A stretch of 64,000 nucleotides of DNA, taken from Aquaticitalea lipolytica (GTDB taxonomy: Bacteria; Bacteroidota; Bacteroidia; Flavobacteriales; Flavobacteriaceae). The notes beneath the pieces are model-generated. The model made no database searches. It was not told the DNA's origin and saw only the letters and a list, made by a program, of their open reading frames with translations. Shown here in pieces: positions 210 to 47,855 of this stretch. Both the position numbers and the translations under genes were made by a program. The stretch's first letter is position 1. Each line of letters begins with the position of its first letter. The stretch is taken from the NCBI RefSeq assembly GCF_014641635.1, contig NZ_BMIC01000003.1:124001-188000 (forward strand). Direction: 5' to 3'.

Positions 210-590
210 TTATTTATTTTTTAATATCCGTTCAACATATTTTCTGTGATTGTCAAATCCGTTATTTTCTGGATTTTCCAAGTCAACCATTACATTAATT
301 CCAGAGTCGTAAATCTGCCAATTATACTTTTTCGATAATTCAATCAAGGCATAAATTGCGTTTTCTCCATATAGTGAAAGCATAAAATTACTTGAATGCT
401 TGTTGTCGATAAAAAAGTCAATCGTAAAATCAGTTCCTATTATTTCTCTGTGATTGTCGTCTTTTTTTATTCGGTCAAATGAGCTTTCTAAAATTCCGCT
501 AAAATCTGTTGGTTCGAGTTGGTTTTCGTCCAGTTCTGCGATTGATTCTATTTTCTGTCTTGAATTAAAAAGTATAATGTCCCAACTCAT
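210..590 (-). CDS. Hypothetical protein, second gene of a two-gene cassette
   Basis: 126 aa, no signal peptide or membrane segment; acidic and probably cytoplasmic. It has the look of a small family scattered through Bacteroidota genomes (MSWDIILFNS start, LYGENAIYALIEL and NWQIYDSGINVMVDLENP segments), but I know no function for it. Its ATG at 590 lies two bases after the stop of the 593-1174 gene, so the two are translationally linked and travel in one cassette bounded by GTTGTACACC and its complement. An immunity or toxin-antitoxin role would fit the context, but nothing in the sequence proves it. Confidence 0.7.
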   Translation of the reverse strand: MSWDIILFNSRQKIESIAELDENQLEPTDFSGILESSFDRIKKDDNHREIIGTDFTIDFFIDNKHSSNFMLSLYGENAIYALIELSKKYNWQIYDSGINVMVDLENPENNGFDNHRKYVERILKNK

Positions 591-592
591 AT

Positions 593-1174
593 TTAATTTT
601 TCATTATTCCTGCTCGGTCAAAATATTCTCCAATAGAATATCTTGGAAGTCCTTCCTCATAACCCAATCGATAGAATCCAATTCCATCGCTTTTTTGTCC
701 GTTTACAGATTCTTGGATTTCTTTCGCCTTATGAATGATTTCTAACTCAGTCAATTCTGATTTACTTTCAATAACTTCTCCTTTTTTTAGCCCACCTTTT
801 GAACCATAAGGAACTAGTATAATTTTTGACGCATTGAATGTCCGACTTCCAAATTCGGATTCCAGTTTTTCAATACCGCTTGAGTCAAAAGCATTCCAAT
901 TAACTTTTTTTGTTCTTCCAAATCTCATCGGTAAATCAGGTCGAAAATATTGTAATTCCTTTTCTGTCAAAGGTAGATTTTCAATCAATTCTGATTTGTT
1001 CTTGAAAATATCAGAGGACATTCGATAGAAAACTGTTTTGACTAGAAATTTGCCCGAGAATGTCCATTTATTATTTGCCCAAAGACAATCATAAAACACT
1101 TCGTAATCGTCAAATCCGATTATTCGAAATGGTCTTTCATCAAATTCTGTTTTATAAATATTTCCTAATTTCAC
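593..1174 (-). CDS. Hypothetical protein, first gene of a two-gene cassette
   Basis: 193 aa, soluble, no recognised domain. The start is GTG at 1174, with no upstream ATG available inside the cassette. Only 12 bases separate the GTG from the cassette terminus (GGTGTACAAC, 1187-1196), and the leader contains ATTTGA, as in several other cassettes here. The C-terminal half has SGIEKLESEFGSRTFNASK and GFYRLGYEEGLPRYSIGEYFDR segments. Function unknown; it is co-transcribed with 210-590. Confidence 0.65.
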   Translation of the reverse strand: MKLGNIYKTEFDERPFRIIGFDDYEVFYDCLWANNKWTFSGKFLVKTVFYRMSSDIFKNKSELIENLPLTEKELQYFRPDLPMRFGRTKKVNWNAFDSSGIEKLESEFGSRTFNASKIILVPYGSKGGLKKGEVIESKSELTELEIIHKAKEIQESVNGQKSDGIGFYRLGYEEGLPRYSIGEYFDRAGIMKN

Positions 1175-1284: not shown

Positions 1285-1839
1285 TCAGAAGCTAAATTCC
1301 AATACTACAATTCGTTTATGAAAATAATCATTAAAATCAGGATTCGAACTTAAAATTCCGTTAACTACTAATTCGTTTTGCATCATTCCAGCTGCTTCTC
1401 GTTTTTCCCAATACTTATTAATCAAATTATCAGAATCTTTTACAACATAGAGTGCTTGCATATATTTACCAATATTGTTTACGCTAATTGTTTCGATGGA
1501 ATCTTTTGAATTAATATCGAAATAATAATTCGTTTCATAAACTTCATTCCATAAACCACTTTCAATATATTCAGTAATAGTCTTTCTGGACATAAAACTG
1601 TAATTTTCATAATAGGATATTGTGTCCGAAATCATATCATTAAGATATTGTCGATAACCTTTTTCGGTTGTCAAATTCGGATATATTTTAGTTAAATTTA
1701 TTTCAAAGTCAGATACGAGTAAATTCAGAGCATTTGTCTGTCTTTCTCCTAATACTTTTTCAAATTCCGTAATTCGGTTGTCAGTTTGAGTACAACTAAA
1801 AGTCAAAACCAGAACTAAAACTAAATAAAATTTCTGCAT
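1285..1839 (-). CDS. Cassette-borne lipoprotein, function unknown
   Basis: 184 aa. The N-terminus MQKFYLVLVLVLTFSCTQ is a short hydrophobic signal ending in a lipobox-like FSC, so the mature protein is probably a membrane-anchored lipoprotein from Cys16. The rest is mainly helical and polar with no domain I recognise. It forms a one-gene cassette with termini GTTAGCAAAC (1265-1274) and GTTTGCTAAC (1851-1860), a perfect 10-bp complement. Confidence 0.7.
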   Translation of the reverse strand: MQKFYLVLVLVLTFSCTQTDNRITEFEKVLGERQTNALNLLVSDFEINLTKIYPNLTTEKGYRQYLNDMISDTISYYENYSFMSRKTITEYIESGLWNEVYETNYYFDINSKDSIETISVNNIGKYMQALYVVKDSDNLINKYWEKREAAGMMQNELVVNGILSSNPDFNDYFHKRIVVLEFSF

Positions 1840-1857
1840 TTCGTTTTTATGTTTGCT

Positions 1858-1981
1858 AACGGTCTAGTATAAGAATAGTAGCGGATTTACAGCCACTAAC
1901 TTTTCGTATGAACACAGACCTTTTTTATATTCACTTTGTTTCAGTTTAGCGATTAAACCGCTATTATTTTTATACATTGTT
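1858..1981 (-). repeat. att-like cassette junction with 17-bp stem
   Basis: A 124-bp spacer from AAC (1858-1860) to GTT (1979-1981). The arms TATAAGAATAGTAGCGG (1868-1884) and CCGCTATTATTTTTATA (1958-1974) pair over 17 positions with two G-T wobbles. The outer ends AACGGTCT and TATACATTGTT are the same as in the site at 46925-47049, whose inner arm sequence is different but also self-complementary. Confidence 0.7.
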
Positions 1982-1992
1982 GGGCGCAGTTT

Positions 1993-3606
1993 TTATTCGA
2001 TAAGTTCTGTCAAAGGTTGTAATAAGGCTCTATAAAAATCTTTTATTTCGGTTGAGTCAAGAATTAATTTCCTGACTGTATTTTCATATTGTTCTTTATT
2101 AAGTCCCAAGCCTGATGTTATCCTATTTAAAACTTGGGTTTCTCTAATAGGATAGCGAGTTAGTAATTCCATCTGATTGCTATTTGTAACAAGACTGTCG
2201 AAATAATTTTCTTCATCTTGTAAAATTTGGTTTAAATCAAATGTTACATTGAACTGTCCTCTTTGTTGAATATCTCTATGTTTTGGCATTGATAACATTA
2301 TGTCATTACGAAGCTTCTTTTCGCAAAGTTTAGAACAAAGCCTCTCTTTATGCTGTGAGATATCTGAAATTATATTTTCGGTTGCGTTTTGATATAATGT
2401 TGTTGCTTCTTGACCTGTTAATTCAGAGATTTTTTGTGCAACTTTTTCAATAATATGTAAATGATAATATAACGCTTCTACCGAGTAAAAAGGAATAGCA
2501 GCAACTCCCTTTTCTAATAATGCTTGAATTTGTTCTGGTGTTCTATCATCTGTATCTATTAGACCATATGCATTTATCCAATGAATGGTTTCTGTTTTTT
2601 TTATTCCGTTAACTGCTTTTTCTACTTCTCTACAATTTCCTTGCGGAATAACAGAAACACTTGGATATATGAGTTGGTAGATTTGTCTATCTAGACTTGT
2701 TGATTGTCCTTCTACAAACAGTAATTCTCTTTTTGAACCAAGTATATCAGTTTTAATAGATATTGGAATAGACAAATCAGCAGTTATCAAATCAGCATCC
2801 CAATCTTTTATATTTTTTCCTTGCCATTGACAACTACGAATTAAAAGCGTGCTCGATTCTTGACAATCAATTGGCAAATGAATGTCGTGGGTAGAAATTA
2901 CAAAAACACAATCTTCTCTTTTTCTAAACAACGATGTCAATAATGGCGAAATAATTGACCTATGTAAATGCCTTTCTGGTTCATCAAGAATAATTAATGA
3001 GTTTGGGTCAGTGGTCAAAACATCTGCTCCAATCAAAAGTGCATTTCTTTCGCCATCTGATAACTCTGCAATGCTATATGGTTCACTACCATTTTTTGAT
3101 GCGAATAGTTGTTCATCTTTTCCAAGAATGATTTTTATTGGAATATTTGATATTGCTAATAATTCATTTATTGCCTCAATAGGTGCTTGGTGTCTCGAAT
3201 GTTCTTTTGCGAGTTCAATATTATCGCCATCAACAGCATCAGCAATAATTCTAGCTCTAATTTTATGTGAATTTATTAAATCAAAAATTGACAAAGAAGT
3301 TCTTGCTTGTGAATAATCATCTTTCCATCTTGAATAAGTACGAGTATCGCTTGATTTTATATTACTTTCAGTTGACTTCTTTTGAGAAGCAGTCATATTC
3401 ATTGCATTATCAGTAAACCAAGTTTGTCTATGAGCAAGGATTCGTTTGGCGTGGTTTTGATTTTGACTAAACAAATTATGCATTAGCGTTGATTTTCCTA
3501 CTCCATTTGCTCCTAGTACGAAAACTGTATTTCCTTCAGTCAATGGAATGTTAAGCGTTCCATTATTTGACGTAGGTATATTGAACTTATATTTATTTTC
3601 AGTCAT
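1993..3606 (-). CDS. ABC-type ATPase with C-terminal TOPRIM/DUF4435-like domain (PARIS-like candidate)
   Basis: 537 aa, cytoplasmic. Residues about 25-45 carry the Walker A motif GANGVGKST. About 180-240 hold the ABC signature LSDGERNALL, the Walker B motif LIILDEPERHLH and the H-loop ISTHD. The C-terminal part reads LLFVEGQS, then LIDTDDR, then FYSVEALYYH, which matches the glutamate, DxD and following helix of TOPRIM/DUF4435 domains. In PARIS defence systems AriA is such an ATPase and AriB such a DUF4435 nuclease, and fused versions are known. The OLD-nuclease family is the main alternative. This is the leader-proximal cassette of array 1, bounded by GTTGGGCGCA and its complement. The domain call is firm; the defence role is inferred. 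Confidence 0.7.
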   Translation of the reverse strand: MTENKYKFNIPTSNNGTLNIPLTEGNTVFVLGANGVGKSTLMHNLFSQNQNHAKRILAHRQTWFTDNAMNMTASQKKSTESNIKSSDTRTYSRWKDDYSQARTSLSIFDLINSHKIRARIIADAVDGDNIELAKEHSRHQAPIEAINELLAISNIPIKIILGKDEQLFASKNGSEPYSIAELSDGERNALLIGADVLTTDPNSLIILDEPERHLHRSIISPLLTSLFRKREDCVFVISTHDIHLPIDCQESSTLLIRSCQWQGKNIKDWDADLITADLSIPISIKTDILGSKRELLFVEGQSTSLDRQIYQLIYPSVSVIPQGNCREVEKAVNGIKKTETIHWINAYGLIDTDDRTPEQIQALLEKGVAAIPFYSVEALYYHLHIIEKVAQKISELTGQEATTLYQNATENIISDISQHKERLCSKLCEKKLRNDIMLSMPKHRDIQQRGQFNVTFDLNQILQDEENYFDSLVTNSNQMELLTRYPIRETQVLNRITSGLGLNKEQYENTVRKLILDSTEIKDFYRALLQPLTELIE

Positions 3607-3644
3607 TTAGTTAATTTGATTACGGTCGTTTTTAAATTGCGCCC

Positions 3645-3773
3645 AACTAGTTATATGTGGACTAATGTTCCTGTATATATATAATAATAAAGGGATAACA
3701 GGAATTATTAGCCTAATTATTAGGCATAAATCTAAACTAAACTTACTTAATTTCCTATACGTAGAACTACGTA
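3645..3773 (-). repeat. Array leader copy A (attI-like candidate)
   Basis: 129 bp, about 90% identical over the same length to 47698-47826. It starts with AAC (3645-3647), the boundary of the first cassette, and ends with the palindrome TACGTAGAACTACGTA. Inside are a hairpin TTCCTGT/ACAGGAA (3668-3674, 3698-3704) and the palindrome GCCTAATTATTAGGC (3711-3725). Read in the gene direction it sits just upstream of the first cassette. It may hold both the insertion site and a promoter; TAGATTTA resembles a -7 box but is one base off TAnnTTTG. Confidence 0.65.
3758..3773. promoter_or_regulatory. TACGTAG-AA-CTACGTA palindrome
   Basis: Perfect 7-bp inverted repeat with a 2-base centre. The same 16 bases occur at 20290-20305 and 47811-47826, each time between two minus-strand genes. 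Its size and symmetry suggest a dimeric regulator's operator; the NarL/LuxR type is one possibility. On the minus strand it lacks the T-run expected of a terminator for the upstream gene. Confidence 0.5.
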
Positions 3774-3815
3774 ATTTTCAATTAATTATAAGTAAAAAAA
3801 CAAACGCTTAATTGG

Positions 3816-42283: not shown

Positions 42284-42348
42284 AACATTTATGAATATTA
42301 TTAGTTTCGTAAGTATGCTAGTACTAGCCATTTTTTATATACTTTGTT
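42284..42348 (-). repeat. att-like cassette junction, short form
   Basis: 65 bp from AAC (42284-42286) to GTT (42346-42348). Its last 23 bases (42326-42348) are identical to the last 23 bases of the next short site (42904-42926). Confidence 0.55.
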
Positions 42349-42850
42349 AGCCACTGTTTTTATTTTTTAGTTTCCTTTTTATTAGTTCAATTTCTTTGGT
42401 CGGATTTTTTTCATCAAGATAGATAATTAAACTATCCGATTTTATTTCAAAACTTCCGCTATATTTTTCAATCTGTGTTGATAAAATAAAGGTATTTCTG
42501 TTATTTGGGTCTGGATAAAAAGGTTCGTCAAAGTCAACAGATTCGGATTCTTTTTTTAATTTATAGTTTTTAAAATCAGAGTCAGATTCCAATTCAATTT
42601 CAAAAGGTTTATGATTGTCATAAGTGATTCTGACTTTTGGAGAGTAACAAAATCCAGTCATTTCTCCAATGCTAAAATTTCCGTTTTGGTCAGAAGTCGA
42701 AGTTAGATTTTTGTCAATCATTTCAATTTTAGCACCACTTATCGGTTTACCAGTATCGGATGAAACAACTTTTCCATTTACCGAAATCCAACAATCGCAA
42801 GAACTTAACAAAAGTGTAATTCCGATTAATGTAAAAATCTTTATTTTCAT
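42347..42850 (-). CDS. Cassette-borne lipoprotein with carboxypeptidase regulatory-like domain
   Basis: 167 aa from ATG 42850 (MKIKIFTLIGITLLLSSCDC, a lipobox signal); a TTG start at 42862 is possible but unlikely. NGKVVSSDTGKPISGAKIEMIDKNLTSTSDQNGNFSIGEM is a CarboxypepD_reg/SusC-plug-type beta-sandwich. Its stop TAA (42347-42349) lies within the GTTA of the junction. ATTTGA follows the terminus in its leader, as in other cassettes. Function unknown. Confidence 0.7.
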   Translation of the reverse strand: MKIKIFTLIGITLLLSSCDCWISVNGKVVSSDTGKPISGAKIEMIDKNLTSTSDQNGNFSIGEMTGFCYSPKVRITYDNHKPFEIELESDSDFKNYKLKKESESVDFDEPFYPDPNNRNTFILSTQIEKYSGSFEIKSDSLIIYLDEKNPTKEIELIKRKLKNKNSG

Positions 42851-42871
42851 AGTAGTTTTCAAATAGTGATC

Positions 42872-42926
42872 AACAGTTTTGTGTAAGATTAGTACTGTAT
42901 TTAAGCCATTTTTTATATACTTTGTT
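42872..42926 (-). repeat. att-like cassette junction, short form
   Basis: 55 bp from AAC (42872-42874) to GTT (42924-42926). The left flank AGTGATCAAC pairs 7/10 with 42346-42355 across the neighbouring gene. Confidence 0.55.
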
Positions 42927-42942
42927 AACTAACGTTATTTTC

Positions 42943-43353
42943 TTATTTGCAATTTTTGGAATTCATACGTTTATTAAATCCATTCCAGAATTCCTTTTCG
43001 TTTTCGAAATTAAGATTTCTATTTATAGGTTCTAAATTCCGTCTTTCATCAGTTTCCAAAAACCGCATTTCAATATTATTAAATCCTGTGTAATTTATTT
43101 TCGCTTTCATTTTCTCTCTCCATTCTCCAAACGTCTCGAAATAAAGAGTGTCATTTTTGATTTCGATTTTTCTCCATTTGGATAATTTGACTCTTTCATT
43201 GTTGGATGCAACTCTCATTGAGTCTTGTTTGAAATAAATCTCTAAATATTCTCCATTGTTACAAACCGAATAATTTCCATCAAGATTTCGGTCGGTTTCA
43301 CAACTAAAGCACAATATTAATGTCAATATTATATTCCAGAGTTTGAGTTTCAT
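42943..43353 (-). CDS. Cassette-borne small lipoprotein
   Basis: 136 aa. Signal MKLKLWNIILTLILCFSCET with a lipobox cysteine, then NLDGNYSVCNNGEYLEIYFKQDSMRV and mainly beta-strand sequence, as in small envelope lipoproteins. Termini GTTAACTAAC (42924-42933) and GTTGGCTAAC (43359-43368) are complementary in 8 of 10 positions. Function unknown. Confidence 0.65.
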   Translation of the reverse strand: MKLKLWNIILTLILCFSCETDRNLDGNYSVCNNGEYLEIYFKQDSMRVASNNERVKLSKWRKIEIKNDTLYFETFGEWREKMKAKINYTGFNNIEMRFLETDERRNLEPINRNLNFENEKEFWNGFNKRMNSKNCK

Positions 43354-43365
43354 TTAATGTTGGCT

Positions 43366-43419
43366 AACGTGTTTGTATATAATTAGTTGTGTGTTTAAGC
43401 AATTTATTATCATTTAGTT
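43366..43419 (-). repeat. att-like cassette junction, short form
   Basis: 54 bp from AAC (43366-43368) to GTT (43417-43419). The left end AACGTGTTTGTATATAATTAG matches the common site; the right end TTTAGTT is less typical. Confidence 0.55.
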
Positions 43420-43435
43420 ATGTGTAGTTTTTTTA

Positions 43436-43636
43436 TTACCATTTCTTTCCATTTGCTGTTTTTCTACAATAATAACATCCACTAGTTTCATTGTCAATAT
43501 TATACCAGGAATGTTCAGCATTAACTATTTCACAATCTTTACCTTTATCAGCAATTCCAAGATTGATTAGAAACCAAGGTAATCTTGCTCTCCACCAAAT
43601 CCTGTATCTGTAAGGATGCTTCTTAATCGTTTTCAT
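43436..43636 (-). CDS. Small protein with CxxC motif, cassette-borne
   Basis: 66 aa, basic N-terminus (KTIKKHPYRYRIWWRARLPW) and a C-terminal HSWYNIDNETSGCYYCRKTANGKKW. The CxxC with upstream histidine could bind zinc. Its ATG overlaps the end of the 114-aa gene by 14 bases, so the two are coupled. Not recognised. Confidence 0.6.
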   Translation of the reverse strand: MKTIKKHPYRYRIWWRARLPWFLINLGIADKGKDCEIVNAEHSWYNIDNETSGCYYCRKTANGKKW

Positions 43637-43967
43637 CTAAGTTATATTTCTCTAAAGCATCAGCCCAAATGTGTTTCTTATTGATGTTTATAGCGTTTTT
43701 TACCAATTTAGTTATTATCTCTTGATTCAATTTATCCTGTTCAATTTCTTCAATAAATTTCTGAGAATCTTCGTGGCTTAATTGTTTTGACTTTTCATCA
43801 AGATTACAGCAACCATAACCATCAAAAGATATTCTTACTAATGATATTAGATTTTCATTAGAACGATTAAAATCGATGAAAACTGAACTGTCAAGGCAAG
43901 ACAAATAGTAGTCAGCTTTTCGGCTTTCAGGCATTATTGTTTTATGAAAGTCTAAATTGTATTTCAT
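43623..43967 (-). CDS. Hypothetical protein, cassette-borne
   Basis: 114 aa, soluble, acidic. SVFIDFNRSNENLISLVRISFDGYGCCNL suggests a small beta fold, followed by a charged helical C-terminus. No family recognised. It is the first gene of the two-gene unit with 43436-43636; the upstream terminus is degenerate (GCGCAATTC where AAC is expected). Confidence 0.65.
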   Translation of the reverse strand: MKYNLDFHKTIMPESRKADYYLSCLDSSVFIDFNRSNENLISLVRISFDGYGCCNLDEKSKQLSHEDSQKFIEEIEQDKLNQEIITKLVKNAININKKHIWADALEKYNLDEND

Positions 43968-43987
43968 CTCACTCTTGAATTGCGCAA

Positions 43988-44136
43988 TTCGTGTTTGTGT
44001 ATGATTAGTGGCGTGGTTTCAGCAACTAAATTAGCAAATACAAACCAAATAGAAAATCCGCGAGACACGAGCAAAGAACTGGCGTAAGCAATTTTGGTAA
44101 GTAGGCGAGAACAAGCAATTAGTTACAGCCATTGTT
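43988..44136 (-). repeat. att-like cassette junction, long form
   Basis: About 149 bp, ending with GTT at 44134-44136. The AAC at the left end is altered (AATTCGTG instead of AACGTG). The interior (GAAAATCCGCGAGACACGAG, GGCGTAAGCAATTTT) is nearly the same as in 44647-44797 and 45284-45433. Confidence 0.65.
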
Positions 44137-44150
44137 GTGTGTAGTTTTTA

Positions 44151-44630
44151 TTACTTTTTATTCAGGATTTTTTGAATTTCCTTTTCCCTTTTTTCACGTT
44201 TGTCTTTAGGAATTCTCCATTCAGTTCCTTCCCAATAGTCAATTATTCCATTCCACGCATTTTGGGTTTCTGTTTTTAACCATTCATTAAATGAATGATG
44301 ATATTCAATTTTTTCTCCACCAATATTTTGAATTCCCTCAAATAATCCAACTGTAATGAAATTCCGAACGTCTTTATCGCCATTTATATAAACATCTTCA
44401 ATATTTTCAAATAGAAGGTCAAAATCAGAAGTTTGATTTTCGAGTTTTTTTTCGACGATAAATCTGGAAATCGAGCCAATATCAACATAAGGAATATTAT
44501 CCACTTGATTGTAGTCTGTAAGGTTAACTTCTTTCGTAAAATGTTCAGTTAGTTCAGCATTTCCTGAAATCAGTTTTTCAAATACTTTTTCAATCTCTTT
44601 ATACTTATATTTGGGTTCTATTACGTTCAT
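44151..44630 (-). CDS. DUF7674-like protein, cassette paralogue 1
   Basis: 159 aa, soluble. YKYKEIEKVFEKLIS, YVDIGSISRFIVEKK and VGLFEGIQNIGG match the 44809-45267 protein in order (roughly 40% identity by eye), so the two are paralogues. I recall this pattern as a DUF7674-type family found near polymorphic toxins as possible immunity proteins, but the function is unproven. One-gene cassette with termini GTTGTGTGTA and TACACACAAC. Confidence 0.65.
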   Translation of the reverse strand: MNVIEPKYKYKEIEKVFEKLISGNAELTEHFTKEVNLTDYNQVDNIPYVDIGSISRFIVEKKLENQTSDFDLLFENIEDVYINGDKDVRNFITVGLFEGIQNIGGEKIEYHHSFNEWLKTETQNAWNGIIDYWEGTEWRIPKDKREKREKEIQKILNKK

Positions 44631-44646
44631 TTCTCAAATTACACAC

Positions 44647-44797
44647 AACGTGTTTGGCTATAGTTTCGTTGCGTGGTTAAGCAACTAAGTTAACAAATAA
44701 AAACCGAATAGAAAATCCGCGAGACACGAGCAAAGCGAACTGGCGTAAGCAATTTTCACAAATAGGCTATAACTAGCAATAAATTATATTCGGTGTT
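44647..44797 (-). repeat. att-like cassette junction, long form
   Basis: 151 bp from AAC (44647-44649) to GTT (44795-44797). It shares most of its interior with the two other long sites, but its left arm reads AACGTGTTTGGCTATAGTTTC. Confidence 0.65.
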
Positions 44798-44808
44798 GTA
44801 AGTAGTTT

Positions 44809-45267
44809 TTATTTTTTCTTATTCAATATTTTTTCGCTTTCAGCAGTTCTTTTCCAATCATCTTTTTCCCAAAAATCAATTAATTCTCTCCACGCTTTGA
44901 GCGAATTTGGTTTCAGCCATTTGTCAAATGAACGATAATAATCTATTTTATAACCGCAAAAAGCTTGGATTCCCTCAAAAAGACCTATTACGATAAGTTC
45001 TTGAACATAGTGTTCTCCGTAAATCATTATTTCTTCTACGTTCTCAAAGAAAATTTCAAATTTCTCGGTTTGTTCGGCTTTTTTCTTTTCAACTATAAAT
45101 TTTGAAATATCTCCAATGTCAACATAGGCTAATCGGTCATTTGGGTCATCATAATCAAATTTCACTTCTGTGTTGTAGAAATCGGTAAGTTCATTCCAAT
45201 TCGAAATCAGTTTATGGAAGACTTTTTCAATGTCAGATTGATGATATCTAGTTTCTGGTTTATTCAT
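44809..45267 (-). CDS. DUF7674-like protein, cassette paralogue 2
   Basis: 152 aa. SDIEKVFHKLIS, YVDIGDISKFIVEKK, IGLFEGIQAFCGYKIDYYRSFDKWL align with the downstream paralogue at 44151-44630. Termini GTTGTAAGTA (44795-44804) and TACTTACAAC (45277-45286) are a perfect 10-bp complement and differ from those of its paralogue. Leader ATTTGAGAG before the ATG. Confidence 0.65.
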   Translation of the reverse strand: MNKPETRYHQSDIEKVFHKLISNWNELTDFYNTEVKFDYDDPNDRLAYVDIGDISKFIVEKKKAEQTEKFEIFFENVEEIMIYGEHYVQELIVIGLFEGIQAFCGYKIDYYRSFDKWLKPNSLKAWRELIDFWEKDDWKRTAESEKILNKKK

Positions 45268-45283
45268 CTCTCAAATTACTTAC

Positions 45284-45433
45284 AACGTGTTTGTGTATGA
45301 TTAGTGGCGTGTTTAAGTACCTAATTTAGCAAATATAAACCGAATAGAAAATCCGCGAGACACGAGCAAAGCGAACTGGCGTAAGCAATTTTCGTAAGTA
45401 GGCGAGAACAAGCAATAAATTATACTCGTTGTT
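45284..45433 (-). repeat. att-like cassette junction, long form
   Basis: 150 bp from AAC (45284-45286) to GTT (45431-45433). The right GTTA contains the stop codon of the 45432-46076 gene. Confidence 0.65.
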
Positions 45434-46076
45434 ACCACACGTTTTTTATATCAGTTTCTTTTAGTTTTTTTTCTTTCCGAGTTTCCTCAATTATATAGTC
45501 AATTTCTTTTCTAAATTCAATTGTGTTTCCTGATTCGGATTTTAGTTGTTCAACTCTTTTTTTTAATTCCAATTCCCATCCATATTCCAATTTATTTTTT
45601 AAAATCAGTTCGAAATACTGGTGAGCTTTTTTTTGGTCATTATTTAACCCACAAATTATTGCTCGATGATAATTCCCCCAAAGACTGTCACTGGTAAATT
45701 CGTGATTCAGAATCGTATTTGTTGCAGTATTTAAGTCAGACAATTTCTCACGTAATTCTAAAGTTCGGTTCAGAGCTAATTCCGTAAGAGTGCACATTTC
45801 TTTTTCAAATTGTTCTTCATTTACAAAGTCAATGAATTCAGATTCTCTATATCCAATGTCATAAGAAAAATAACCTTTTTGATACCAATGAAAATTTACT
45901 CCAACATTTAAACAAGTTCCTTGTCTATCTTTAAAAGGTTGAAATTCTATTCCTGTTGTGAACCAATAATGGTCGTCAAGCCATTTACGAGATTGTCCCT
46001 TGCGTTCAATTCCGTACTCTTTTAAAATTTTCCGAGCAACTTTGTTTATTATTTTACTATGAATTGGTGTTGGCAT
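45432..46076 (-). CDS. DUF4304-like protein, cassette-borne
   Basis: 214 aa, soluble. The N-terminal half (IINKVARKILKEYGIERKGQSRKWLDDHYWFTTGIEFQPF, then VGVNFHWYQKG) looks like DUF4304; the C-terminal half is helical (possible TPR-like ALNRTLELREKL). Its last codons GTG TGG TAA are part of the terminus GTGTGGTAAC's copy at 45431-45440, so the stop is inside the core. Leader ATTTGAGAA before the ATG. Function unknown. Confidence 0.6.
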   Translation of the reverse strand: MPTPIHSKIINKVARKILKEYGIERKGQSRKWLDDHYWFTTGIEFQPFKDRQGTCLNVGVNFHWYQKGYFSYDIGYRESEFIDFVNEEQFEKEMCTLTELALNRTLELREKLSDLNTATNTILNHEFTSDSLWGNYHRAIICGLNNDQKKAHQYFELILKNKLEYGWELELKKRVEQLKSESGNTIEFRKEIDYIIEETRKEKKLKETDIKNVW

Positions 46077-46092
46077 TTCTCAAATGTGTGGT

Positions 46093-46215
46093 AACGGTTT
46101 TGTGTATGGTTAGTGGCGTGTTTAAGCACCTAATTTAGCAAATAAAAACCGAATAGAAAATCCGCGAGGATTTTCGTAAGCAAGCTCGAACTAGCCATTA
46201 ATTATACACGGTGTT
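46093..46215 (-). repeat. att-like cassette junction with 16-bp stem
   Basis: 123 bp from AAC (46093-46095) to GTT (46213-46215). GTGTATGGTTAGTGGC (46102-46117) pairs with GCCATTAATTATACAC (46194-46209), with three G-T wobbles. At the apex GAAAATCC (46156-46163) and GGATTTTC (46168-46175) form a perfect hairpin with loop GCGA. Confidence 0.7.
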
Positions 46216-46897
46216 ACCTGCTGGCTTTTATTTTTTCAAATTCCGATTCACTAAGGATTTCGGCTAATTCCAATTCAATCAACTCGTGTTGAATAGGGAT
46301 TTTCCTTTTATATTTTATCATTCCAATGTCTTTTACGTAAAATGCATCTTGATAAAACCTTTGCTCAACATCGTGGTCAAGTGCTAAAATTATATAGTCG
46401 TCTCTAAATTTCACAGCTTCATATTCCTTTCCATTTACAGTAATATTTTCAATTCCAGATTCCGCTCTTTTCTTTTTAAAATCGAAGCGACCATATTTAT
46501 TTACATATTTAACAGAATATATGTACTCTTTATCTCCATTCCATTTGTAAACGTCTTTGTCAATTACCTTTGCTTTGATTTCTTTTCTTTCTCCTTTATC
46601 ATTCATTTCGAAGTCAGAGTAAGCTGTTAATTCAGCTCCATTTTCTGTTATAAACTCGTCAAACGTATTATAAATATTAAAGTCAGAATCGTAAGAAACT
46701 GTTTTCAATTCATTTGTTTTCGGATTTGATGTCACTTTCCAATACTCAATTTTTGTCGAGTCGTTTTTATCCACGTATTTATAAACTTTGGTTTCTGTTT
46801 TATTTGAAAATGGATAATAAAAGTCTTTTAAATTTTCTTGCGCAGAGCAACTTGAGATAATAAAAATTAAAATCAAAAGTGTAATGTTTTTTGTCAT
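46214..46897 (-). CDS. Cassette-borne lipoprotein
   Basis: 227 aa from ATG 46897 (MTKNITLLILIFIISSCSAQ, lipobox SSC). The open frame reaches TTG at 46903, but ATTGAGA right before the ATG matches the leader of other cassettes. The mature protein is polar and strand-rich; no domain is recognised. The stop TAA (46214-46216) lies within the junction GTTA. Termini GTTACCTGC / GCAGGTAAC. Confidence 0.65.
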   Translation of the reverse strand: MTKNITLLILIFIISSCSAQENLKDFYYPFSNKTETKVYKYVDKNDSTKIEYWKVTSNPKTNELKTVSYDSDFNIYNTFDEFITENGAELTAYSDFEMNDKGERKEIKAKVIDKDVYKWNGDKEYIYSVKYVNKYGRFDFKKKRAESGIENITVNGKEYEAVKFRDDYIILALDHDVEQRFYQDAFYVKDIGMIKYKRKIPIQHELIELELAEILSESEFEKIKASR

Positions 46898-46924
46898 TCT
46901 CAATGTTTTTTTTAGCTTGCAGGT

Positions 46925-47049
46925 AACGGTCTCGTATAACCGTCAGTTACGGGTTAATATGCGTTAATTTTCGGTTTAACACAGGCTTTAGCAATTCCGC
47001 ATGGATTCGGACGTAGTCGAATCCGCCGTAATTGCGGTTATACATTGTT
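46925..47049 (-). repeat. att-like cassette junction with 17-bp stem
   Basis: 125 bp from AAC (46925-46927) to GTT (47047-47049). TATAACCGTCAGTTACGG (46935-46952) pairs with CCGTAATTGCGGTTATA (47026-47042) with one bulge and one wobble. An inner hairpin GGATTCG/CGAATCC lies at 47003-47009 and 47018-47024. Outer ends are as in the 1858-1981 site, inner arms differ. Confidence 0.7.
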
Positions 47050-47061
47050 GTAAACTGGCTT

Positions 47062-47676
47062 TTATGCGACTCTTTCAATTCGGCAATTTTCACATTCAGG
47101 ATGAGTTTTTACAAAGTCAGCAATCGATTCATTGATTTTCTCAAATGATTCTCCATAAAAATATAATCCAGTTTCTGTATTTCCTTGCCAATATCGAAGA
47201 ACATTATCTTTTATATTCGCTAATCGTCTAATCTCTATAGCTAAAGTTTCAGAGTCAGAATTTTTATAAACTTCATCAGACAGATTTATTCCGTCAAGAT
47301 AAATTCCTAAACCTTCCTTTTTTCCAAATTCAATTTTCTGTTCCGTTTTCTCAATTGTCAGCTTAGAACCTTTTGGTGCTCCAAGCTCTTCAAGTTTCTC
47401 AATGATTGATTTAATGTGATTTTCATTAATGTCATCAGAATTTAGTTGGATCTCTACGTCACAGTATTCTAATTCTCCAGATTCTAATTGCATAGTTCCT
47501 CCACCTGTAACTTCTCCAATTCCATTAGCTTGAAGAAATTCATCTAACGGGTCTTCATAAATTTCTCCTCTATCAATTGGCATTACTTTATCATTTAGAG
47601 TTGCGACAATAAAATTCCCAGAGTATTCTTCTTCCTCTTTTTTATTTAATCCGAAAAGTTTTTTAATGAAGTTCAT
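47062..47676 (-). CDS. Hypothetical protein, leader-proximal cassette
   Basis: 204 aa, soluble, acidic. FIKKLFGLNKKEEEEYSG start, a central ferredoxin-like pattern (LEYCDVEIQLNSDDINENHIKSIIEKLEELGAPKGSKLTI) and a C-terminal HPECENCRIERVA with CxxC. I do not recognise the family. The leader is immediately upstream, so this is the first cassette of array 2. Termini GTTGTAAAC (47047-47055) and GTTTACAAC (47692-47700). Confidence 0.65.
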   Translation of the reverse strand: MNFIKKLFGLNKKEEEEYSGNFIVATLNDKVMPIDRGEIYEDPLDEFLQANGIGEVTGGGTMQLESGELEYCDVEIQLNSDDINENHIKSIIEKLEELGAPKGSKLTIEKTEQKIEFGKKEGLGIYLDGINLSDEVYKNSDSETLAIEIRRLANIKDNVLRYWQGNTETGLYFYGESFEKINESIADFVKTHPECENCRIERVA

Positions 47677-47697
47677 ATGTTGGTTTAGCTTGTTTAC

Positions 47698-47826
47698 AAC
47701 TAGTTATATGTGGACTATTGTTCCTGTTTATATTTTTCAATTAAGGGATAACAGGAATTATTAGCCTTATTATTAAGCATAAAACTAAATTAAACTTATG
47801 TAATTTCCTATACGTAGAACTACGTA
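47698..47826 (-). repeat. Array leader copy B (attI-like candidate)
   Basis: 129 bp, same length as copy A at 3645-3773 and different at about 13 positions. It keeps the AACTAGTTATATGTGGACTA end at the cassette boundary, the TTCCTGT/ACAGGAA hairpin (47721-47727, 47751-47757) and the TACGTAG palindrome, while the GCCTAATTATTAGGC palindrome of copy A is imperfect here. Confidence 0.65.
47811..47826. promoter_or_regulatory. TACGTAG-AA-CTACGTA palindrome
   Basis: 16 bases identical to 3758-3773 and 20290-20305, here at the outer end of leader B, 30 bases from the stop of the AlkD-like gene. Confidence 0.5.
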
Positions 47827-47855
47827 ATTTTTAAGTGTAAAATGCGTGAGGTAAT

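Follow-up and report, generated by a model that had tools for sequence, protein, structure and literature searches.

A probable single-chain PARIS protein borne as an integron-type gene cassette in Aquaticitalea lipolytica

The window analysed here is a stretch of 64,000 nucleotides from Aquaticitalea lipolytica (contig NZ_BMIC01000003.1, positions 124,001 to 188,000). It holds two arrays of cassettes, both read leftward. The cassette next to the leader of the first array encodes a protein of 537 aa with an ATG start, and this protein is the main subject of our study. The following features are referred to throughout, all in window coordinates.

210 to 1174, minus strand: third cassette, with two open reading frames (593-1174 and 210-590) to which no function is assigned
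1285 to 1839, minus strand: second cassette gene, encoding a lipoprotein-like protein of 184 aa
1854 to 3647, minus strand: gene cassette, which starts with GTTGGGCGC at 3647 and comprises the gene, R'' GCGCCCAAC at 1979-1987 and an attC-like hairpin up to the GTTAGC of the next cassette (1860)
1854 to 1987, minus strand: attC-like site, with a long hairpin predicted on the plus strand of the window, i.e., the bottom strand of the cassette
1993 to 3606, minus strand: fused AriAB (PARIS-type) protein, with the ABC ATPase at about residues 1-275 and DUF4435/Toprim at about 290-537
2476 to 2478, minus strand: E377 of the YSxE motif, which AriB also has; invariant
2548 to 2556, minus strand: Toprim D351-x-D353, invariant and aligned with IDxD of AriB
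2710 to 2712, minus strand: Toprim glutamate E299 (FVEG motif), invariant and aligned with FVEG of two-gene AriB
2974 to 2991, minus strand: Walker B, ILDEPE (D208, E209), with D208-E209-P210-E211 invariant in 13 relatives
3487 to 3513, minus strand: Walker A, G32-ANGVGKS-T40, with G32, N34, G35, G37, K38 and S39 invariant in 13 relatives
3631 to 3781, minus strand: leader, common to the second array and to contig C1
3645 to 3660, minus strand: attI-like core CCACATATAACTAGTT, whose exact matches in the genome lie only at four array heads
42347 to 47700, minus strand: second array, eight cassettes with attC-like sites
47698 to 47713, minus strand: attI-like core of the second array, an exact copy of 3645-3660

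The original prediction had described a fusion of an ABC-type ATPase with a TOPRIM/DUF4435-like domain, resembling AriA plus AriB of the PARIS system, and profile searches bear out both points. Pfam reports AAA_21 with 46.5 bits and, at residues 296-471, DUF4435 with 40.9 bits (cut-off 27 in either case). The PADLOC profile of fused AriAB (PDLC02982) covers residues 4-532 of 537 and profile positions 25-567 of 570 (E=1e-65, 220 bits). Another AriAB model scores 54 bits and AriA 47 bits, and the top non-PARIS families reach 38-39 bits. AAA_21 together with DUF4435 is the published detection rule for PARIS, of which a single-gene fusion form is known (Rousset et al. 2022, PMC9122126). The open reading frame unites in one protein AAA_21, one of the two ATPase domains (AAA_15 or AAA_21) named in the domain rule, with the DUF4435 that the rule requires. 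The fused architecture is already known (PMC9122126, PMC10568477), and a fused PARIS protein is an added member of a known family. Its size is normal: 537 aa had been thought compact for such a fusion, which does not hold because the AriAB profile is 570 positions long and the relatives measure about 530-560 aa. In relatives at 31-65% identity, found in a Clostridium genome, on plasmids and on viral contigs, AriAB is also the top profile. A fused AriAB of about 31% identity occurs on a very small E. coli plasmid (5.3 kb) and on similar Salmonella plasmids, the gene accounting for about a quarter to a third of their length.

Besides the Walker motifs, the signature SDGE and H240 are invariant in the AriAB protein (13 sequences, 29-94% identity), and so are all Toprim acidic residues, E299, D351, D353 and E377. 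The same motifs occur in two-gene AriB, and E299 is likely the counterpart of the glutamate in AriB FVEG.

ABC ATPase and Toprim parts are combined in other defence nucleases as well. It is unlikely, but has to be weighed, that the protein is an OLD/Gabija-like or retron/Septu-like ABC-Toprim nuclease, which would cut DNA and not tRNA and would thus serve defence without being PARIS. This alternative draws on the fold. All structure comparisons used a second model (pLDDT 85), the first (5 close sequences, pLDDT 43) having been set aside. Foldseek places GajA (OLD class 2) first, aligned over ATPase and Toprim, and VIA-align places the retron protein PtuA first. A best structural match outside PARIS had been named beforehand as evidence against PARIS, and in the literal sense this is what was obtained. 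The outcome is nevertheless ambiguous, since AriA is tied with these rows (Z 14.6 vs 15.4), the solved PARIS structures have separate AriA and AriB chains, and rows with the ATPase fold make up the list, ABC transporters with tied scores among them. By fold comparison, PARIS is not distinguished from the ATPases of Gabija, Septu or retrons; the rows span mostly residues 1-343, so that the effector half is barely covered.

These families are told apart by sequence profiles, not by fold. The ATPase half gives the alternative some further room: its alignment to OLD ATPases is no worse than that to AriA (262 columns with OLD proteins), in a comparison of 13 OLD sequences with 3 of AriA whose imbalance favours OLD, and it has no long insert of the kind expected from the AriA length of 450-464 aa. 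The effector half points the other way. Against an AriB profile built from four sequences of two-gene ATPase+DUF4435 loci, it aligns over 107 residues through FVEG, IDxD and YSxE, a weak match (E=6e-4, probability 28%), whereas the profile alignment with OLD proteins spans 31 residues only; past the FVEG motif it tracks AriB and not OLD. A phmmer search of this half against the PDB returned a chance match only. The comparison of DUF4435 with OLD profiles that had been proposed came out on the side of DUF4435, which lies above its cut-off; OLD-like_TOPRIM (PF20469) is absent among the Pfam matches of the open reading frame up to E=1 and has no match at E<=1e-10 in the genome. The distance between the AriAB profile and the top non-PARIS profiles likewise speaks against a DNA-cutting OLD, Gabija or retron nuclease. 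We place the protein in PARIS because of the fused AriAB profile and the DUF4435 effector; the fold offers no such basis.

Close copies of the cassette occur in two other genera. DNA identity is 91.7% over 1668 nt with the Cyclobacterium copy and 88.9% over 1689 nt with the Lutibacter copy, and in both the homology begins 41 nt before the ATG, at GTTGGG, giving common ends GTTGGG...GCCCAA. In Cyclobacterium it stops at GCGCCCAA behind the stop codon; in Lutibacter it continues about 20 nt further, into the attC-like element. Around the Cyclobacterium copy, whose cassette ends are the same, no attI or attC-like hairpin was recognised. dN/dS amounts to 0.029/0.37 against Cyclobacterium and 0.032/0.61 against Lutibacter (ratio about 0.05-0.08). 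These values argue for a maintained protein, and by this measure the gene is under strong purifying selection; they also mark both copies as old and selected. A further close copy was absent from both samples searched, 395 genomes from the order and 395 from the phylum, and this patchy distribution fits horizontal transfer. The attC-like hairpin differs from that in Lutibacter; the idea that it does not travel with the gene was dropped, since a dS of 0.61 allows such non-coding drift.

The gene had been predicted to lie leader-proximal, and it does: its cassette starts, reading leftward from 3647, at the GTT of a conserved leader and attI-like core. Further copies of the leader, which is 151 nt long, stand at 47684-47834 (87%) and on contig C1 (89%). 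The genome contains its core CCACATATAACYAGTT without mismatch exactly four times, each time at an array head, and every other match has two mismatches. The second array of the window and the array on contig C1 share leader and attI core and have no recombinase alongside. Cassette calls rest on complementary ends, because a mechanical hairpin scan gave many false hits. Eight of 11 cassettes in the two arrays of the window show perfect end complementarity of 9-10 nt. Among the 11 testable cassettes, the start matches the cassette's own end in a mean of 6.1 of 7 positions, compared with 2.2 for other ends, a pairing reached in none of 20,000 permutations. Rfam reports nothing near the AriAB array. 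Neighbouring cassettes of the second array (44151-44630 and 44809-45267) both encode DUF7674 proteins, possibly as immunity or duplicate cassettes. On contig C5, an apparent 3.2-kb cassette with matching ends contains several genes in mixed orientation, which by inspection of their translations are LtrA-like, thioesterase-like, peroxiredoxin-like, quinone reductase-like and HxlR-like.

Could AriAB be an ordinary chromosomal gene, with cassette-like ends and hairpins arising by chance? Such a reading could point to the genome itself, which lacks an intact matching-type recombinase, and to the attC-like element behind the gene, for which a long hairpin is predicted on the bottom strand alone and the energy z-scores are modest. 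We regard it as extremely improbable: cassette ends are common to separate genera, the permutation test is clear, an exact attI core heads all four arrays, and the Lutibacter copy sits within a long attC-like array. Site-specific recombination at the attI-like core is the probable route by which the cassette came into this genome. As judged from sequence comparison, we consider it probable that the 537-aa protein is a single-chain PARIS (AriAB) abortive-infection protein borne as an integron-type gene cassette.

That these arrays carry defence genes had been anticipated as well, and at the level of prediction the claim is supported by AriAB and a PDC-S15 gene as head cassettes and by the content of the Lutibacter array. 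The first cassette of the array on contig C1 encodes an FRG-domain protein with a 371-bit match to PDC-S15, a candidate defence family; the other cassette genes scanned in this genome, including those of the second array, gave no defence match. In Lutibacter agarilyticus (19 kb of sequence), the array around the AriAB cassette contains a bSEFIR gene, two ThsB-like TIR genes and a PDC-S20 KAP ATPase. This array is long, attC-like and rich in predicted defence genes, and a Ppl-like protein is encoded there as well. The Lutibacter neighbours bear on another reading, namely a conserved cassette ATPase-nuclease that has no anti-phage role and acts, e.g., in plasmid exclusion or stress-induced growth arrest. 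The literature covered holds no phage data on any family member, and for relatives on plasmids and viral contigs the exclusion of rivals is also plausible. Yet all close profile matches are defence families, and the Lutibacter copy has bSEFIR, ThsB-like and PDC-S20 genes around it, so we deem a role outside phage defence very unlikely and retain the PARIS reading.

In the two-gene form of PARIS, AriB is held by a hexamer of AriA until phage proteins, e.g., Ocr, bind AriA; host tRNA is then cleaved by AriB, acting as a Toprim nuclease of the two-metal type (PMC12409363). By analogy, the ATPase part of the fused protein would sense a phage protein and activate the Toprim part, which would then cleave host tRNA and stop translation. 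Here the effector could not be released as AriB is, because it is covalently tied to the sensor; activation would therefore have to occur in place, e.g., by a change of oligomer. A fused sensor-effector whose nuclease is not releasable thus allows a test of whether release is required in PARIS or activation is enough.

On contig C5, the attI core directly follows a tyrosine-recombinase fragment of about 111 codons, just past its stop codon. The fragment has a full-length relative in Lutibacter (67% identity), and relatives of this Lutibacter recombinase occur in 49 of 199 sampled genomes of the family, including one genus-mate. Wherever the gene is readable (24 of 24 loci), an attI-like core follows within about 200 nt of the recombinase stop codon; the same holds for 5 of 136 other long open frames. 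Each of the 24 sampled relatives has a different first cassette behind the core. Among the 19 loci with enough downstream sequence, the complementary 10-nt cassette end is exact in 11 and has at most one mismatch in 14. The array head had been proposed as the place where new cassettes would enter. The attI-like core supports this, but capture is probably dormant in this genome, since the search for a recombinase of the matching type yielded only a truncated gene, which lies on another contig.

The linked recombinase is XerA-like; it scores 213 bits with NF040815 (cut-off 220) and 194 bits with the integron integrase model (cut-off 265). The gap between Arg and HxLRH measures 89 residues in 24 of 25 sequences, and the IntI insertion is absent; in IntI this gap is longer. 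TIGR02249 found nothing above cut-off in this genome or in 299 genomes of the family. The Lutibacter recombinase was considered as a canonical IntI and rejected, its TIGR02249 match consisting of two separate stretches below cut-off without the IntI insertion. Checked against the features of classical integrons, the arrays have complementary RYYYAAC / GTTRRRY ends with a foldable attC, and no IntI integrase with the IntI-specific insertion goes with them.

AriAB as a defence family is familiar, and it is the mobile setting that is unusual: cassette ends that recur across genera flank a PARIS gene, which heads its array next to an attI core belonging to a recombinase lineage that about a quarter of the sampled family genomes possess. 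We lean, by a little, towards seeing the fused PARIS as one item of a little-noticed cassette-capture system spread throughout the Flavobacteriaceae. It would be an integron analogue, run by a XerA-like recombinase without the IntI insertion and with attI directly behind the recombinase gene; it would gather anti-phage genes, exchange them across genera and leave behind satellite arrays that have no integrase, e.g., the two in the window. Defence cassettes in IntI integrons are known from Vibrio and from mobile integrons (Darracq 2025 and Getz 2025, as cited in PMC12444791), and complete integrons are almost absent from Bacteroidetes according to the 2022 IntegronFinder 2.0 survey, which names one complete example (PMC9024848). 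Our literature search, which covered part of the literature, found no description of the recombinase-attI arrangement. If such a system exists, the idea of integrons as defence libraries, demonstrated so far for IntI integrons, extends to a phylum thought nearly integron-free.

Compared with known systems, the protein agrees with the fused PARIS form (PADLOC AriAB PDLC02982) in domain order, length, full-length profile match and Toprim motifs, and differs in being borne as an integron-type cassette. Two-gene AriA/AriB (solved, e.g., as 8ux9 and 8v46) likewise combines an ABC ATPase with a DUF4435/Toprim part carrying FVEG, IDxD and YSxE. There, however, AriA and AriB are separate chains and AriA has its 450-464 aa, whereas here one chain holds both and the ATPase part has about 275 aa. 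OLD-family nucleases, including GajA of Gabija, also join ABC ATPase and Toprim in one chain with a similar ATPase fold; in contrast to them, our cassette has no helicase partner, gives no reported OLD-like_TOPRIM match and encodes an effector that is AriB-like past the first motif. As for the mobile setting, IntI integrons likewise possess an attI-like site, complementary GTT.../...AAC ends, a bottom-strand hairpin and defence genes among their cassettes. They differ from the system outlined here in that its linked recombinase is XerA-like, without the IntI insertion and under the IntI cut-off, and in that its attI lies downstream of the recombinase stop codon.
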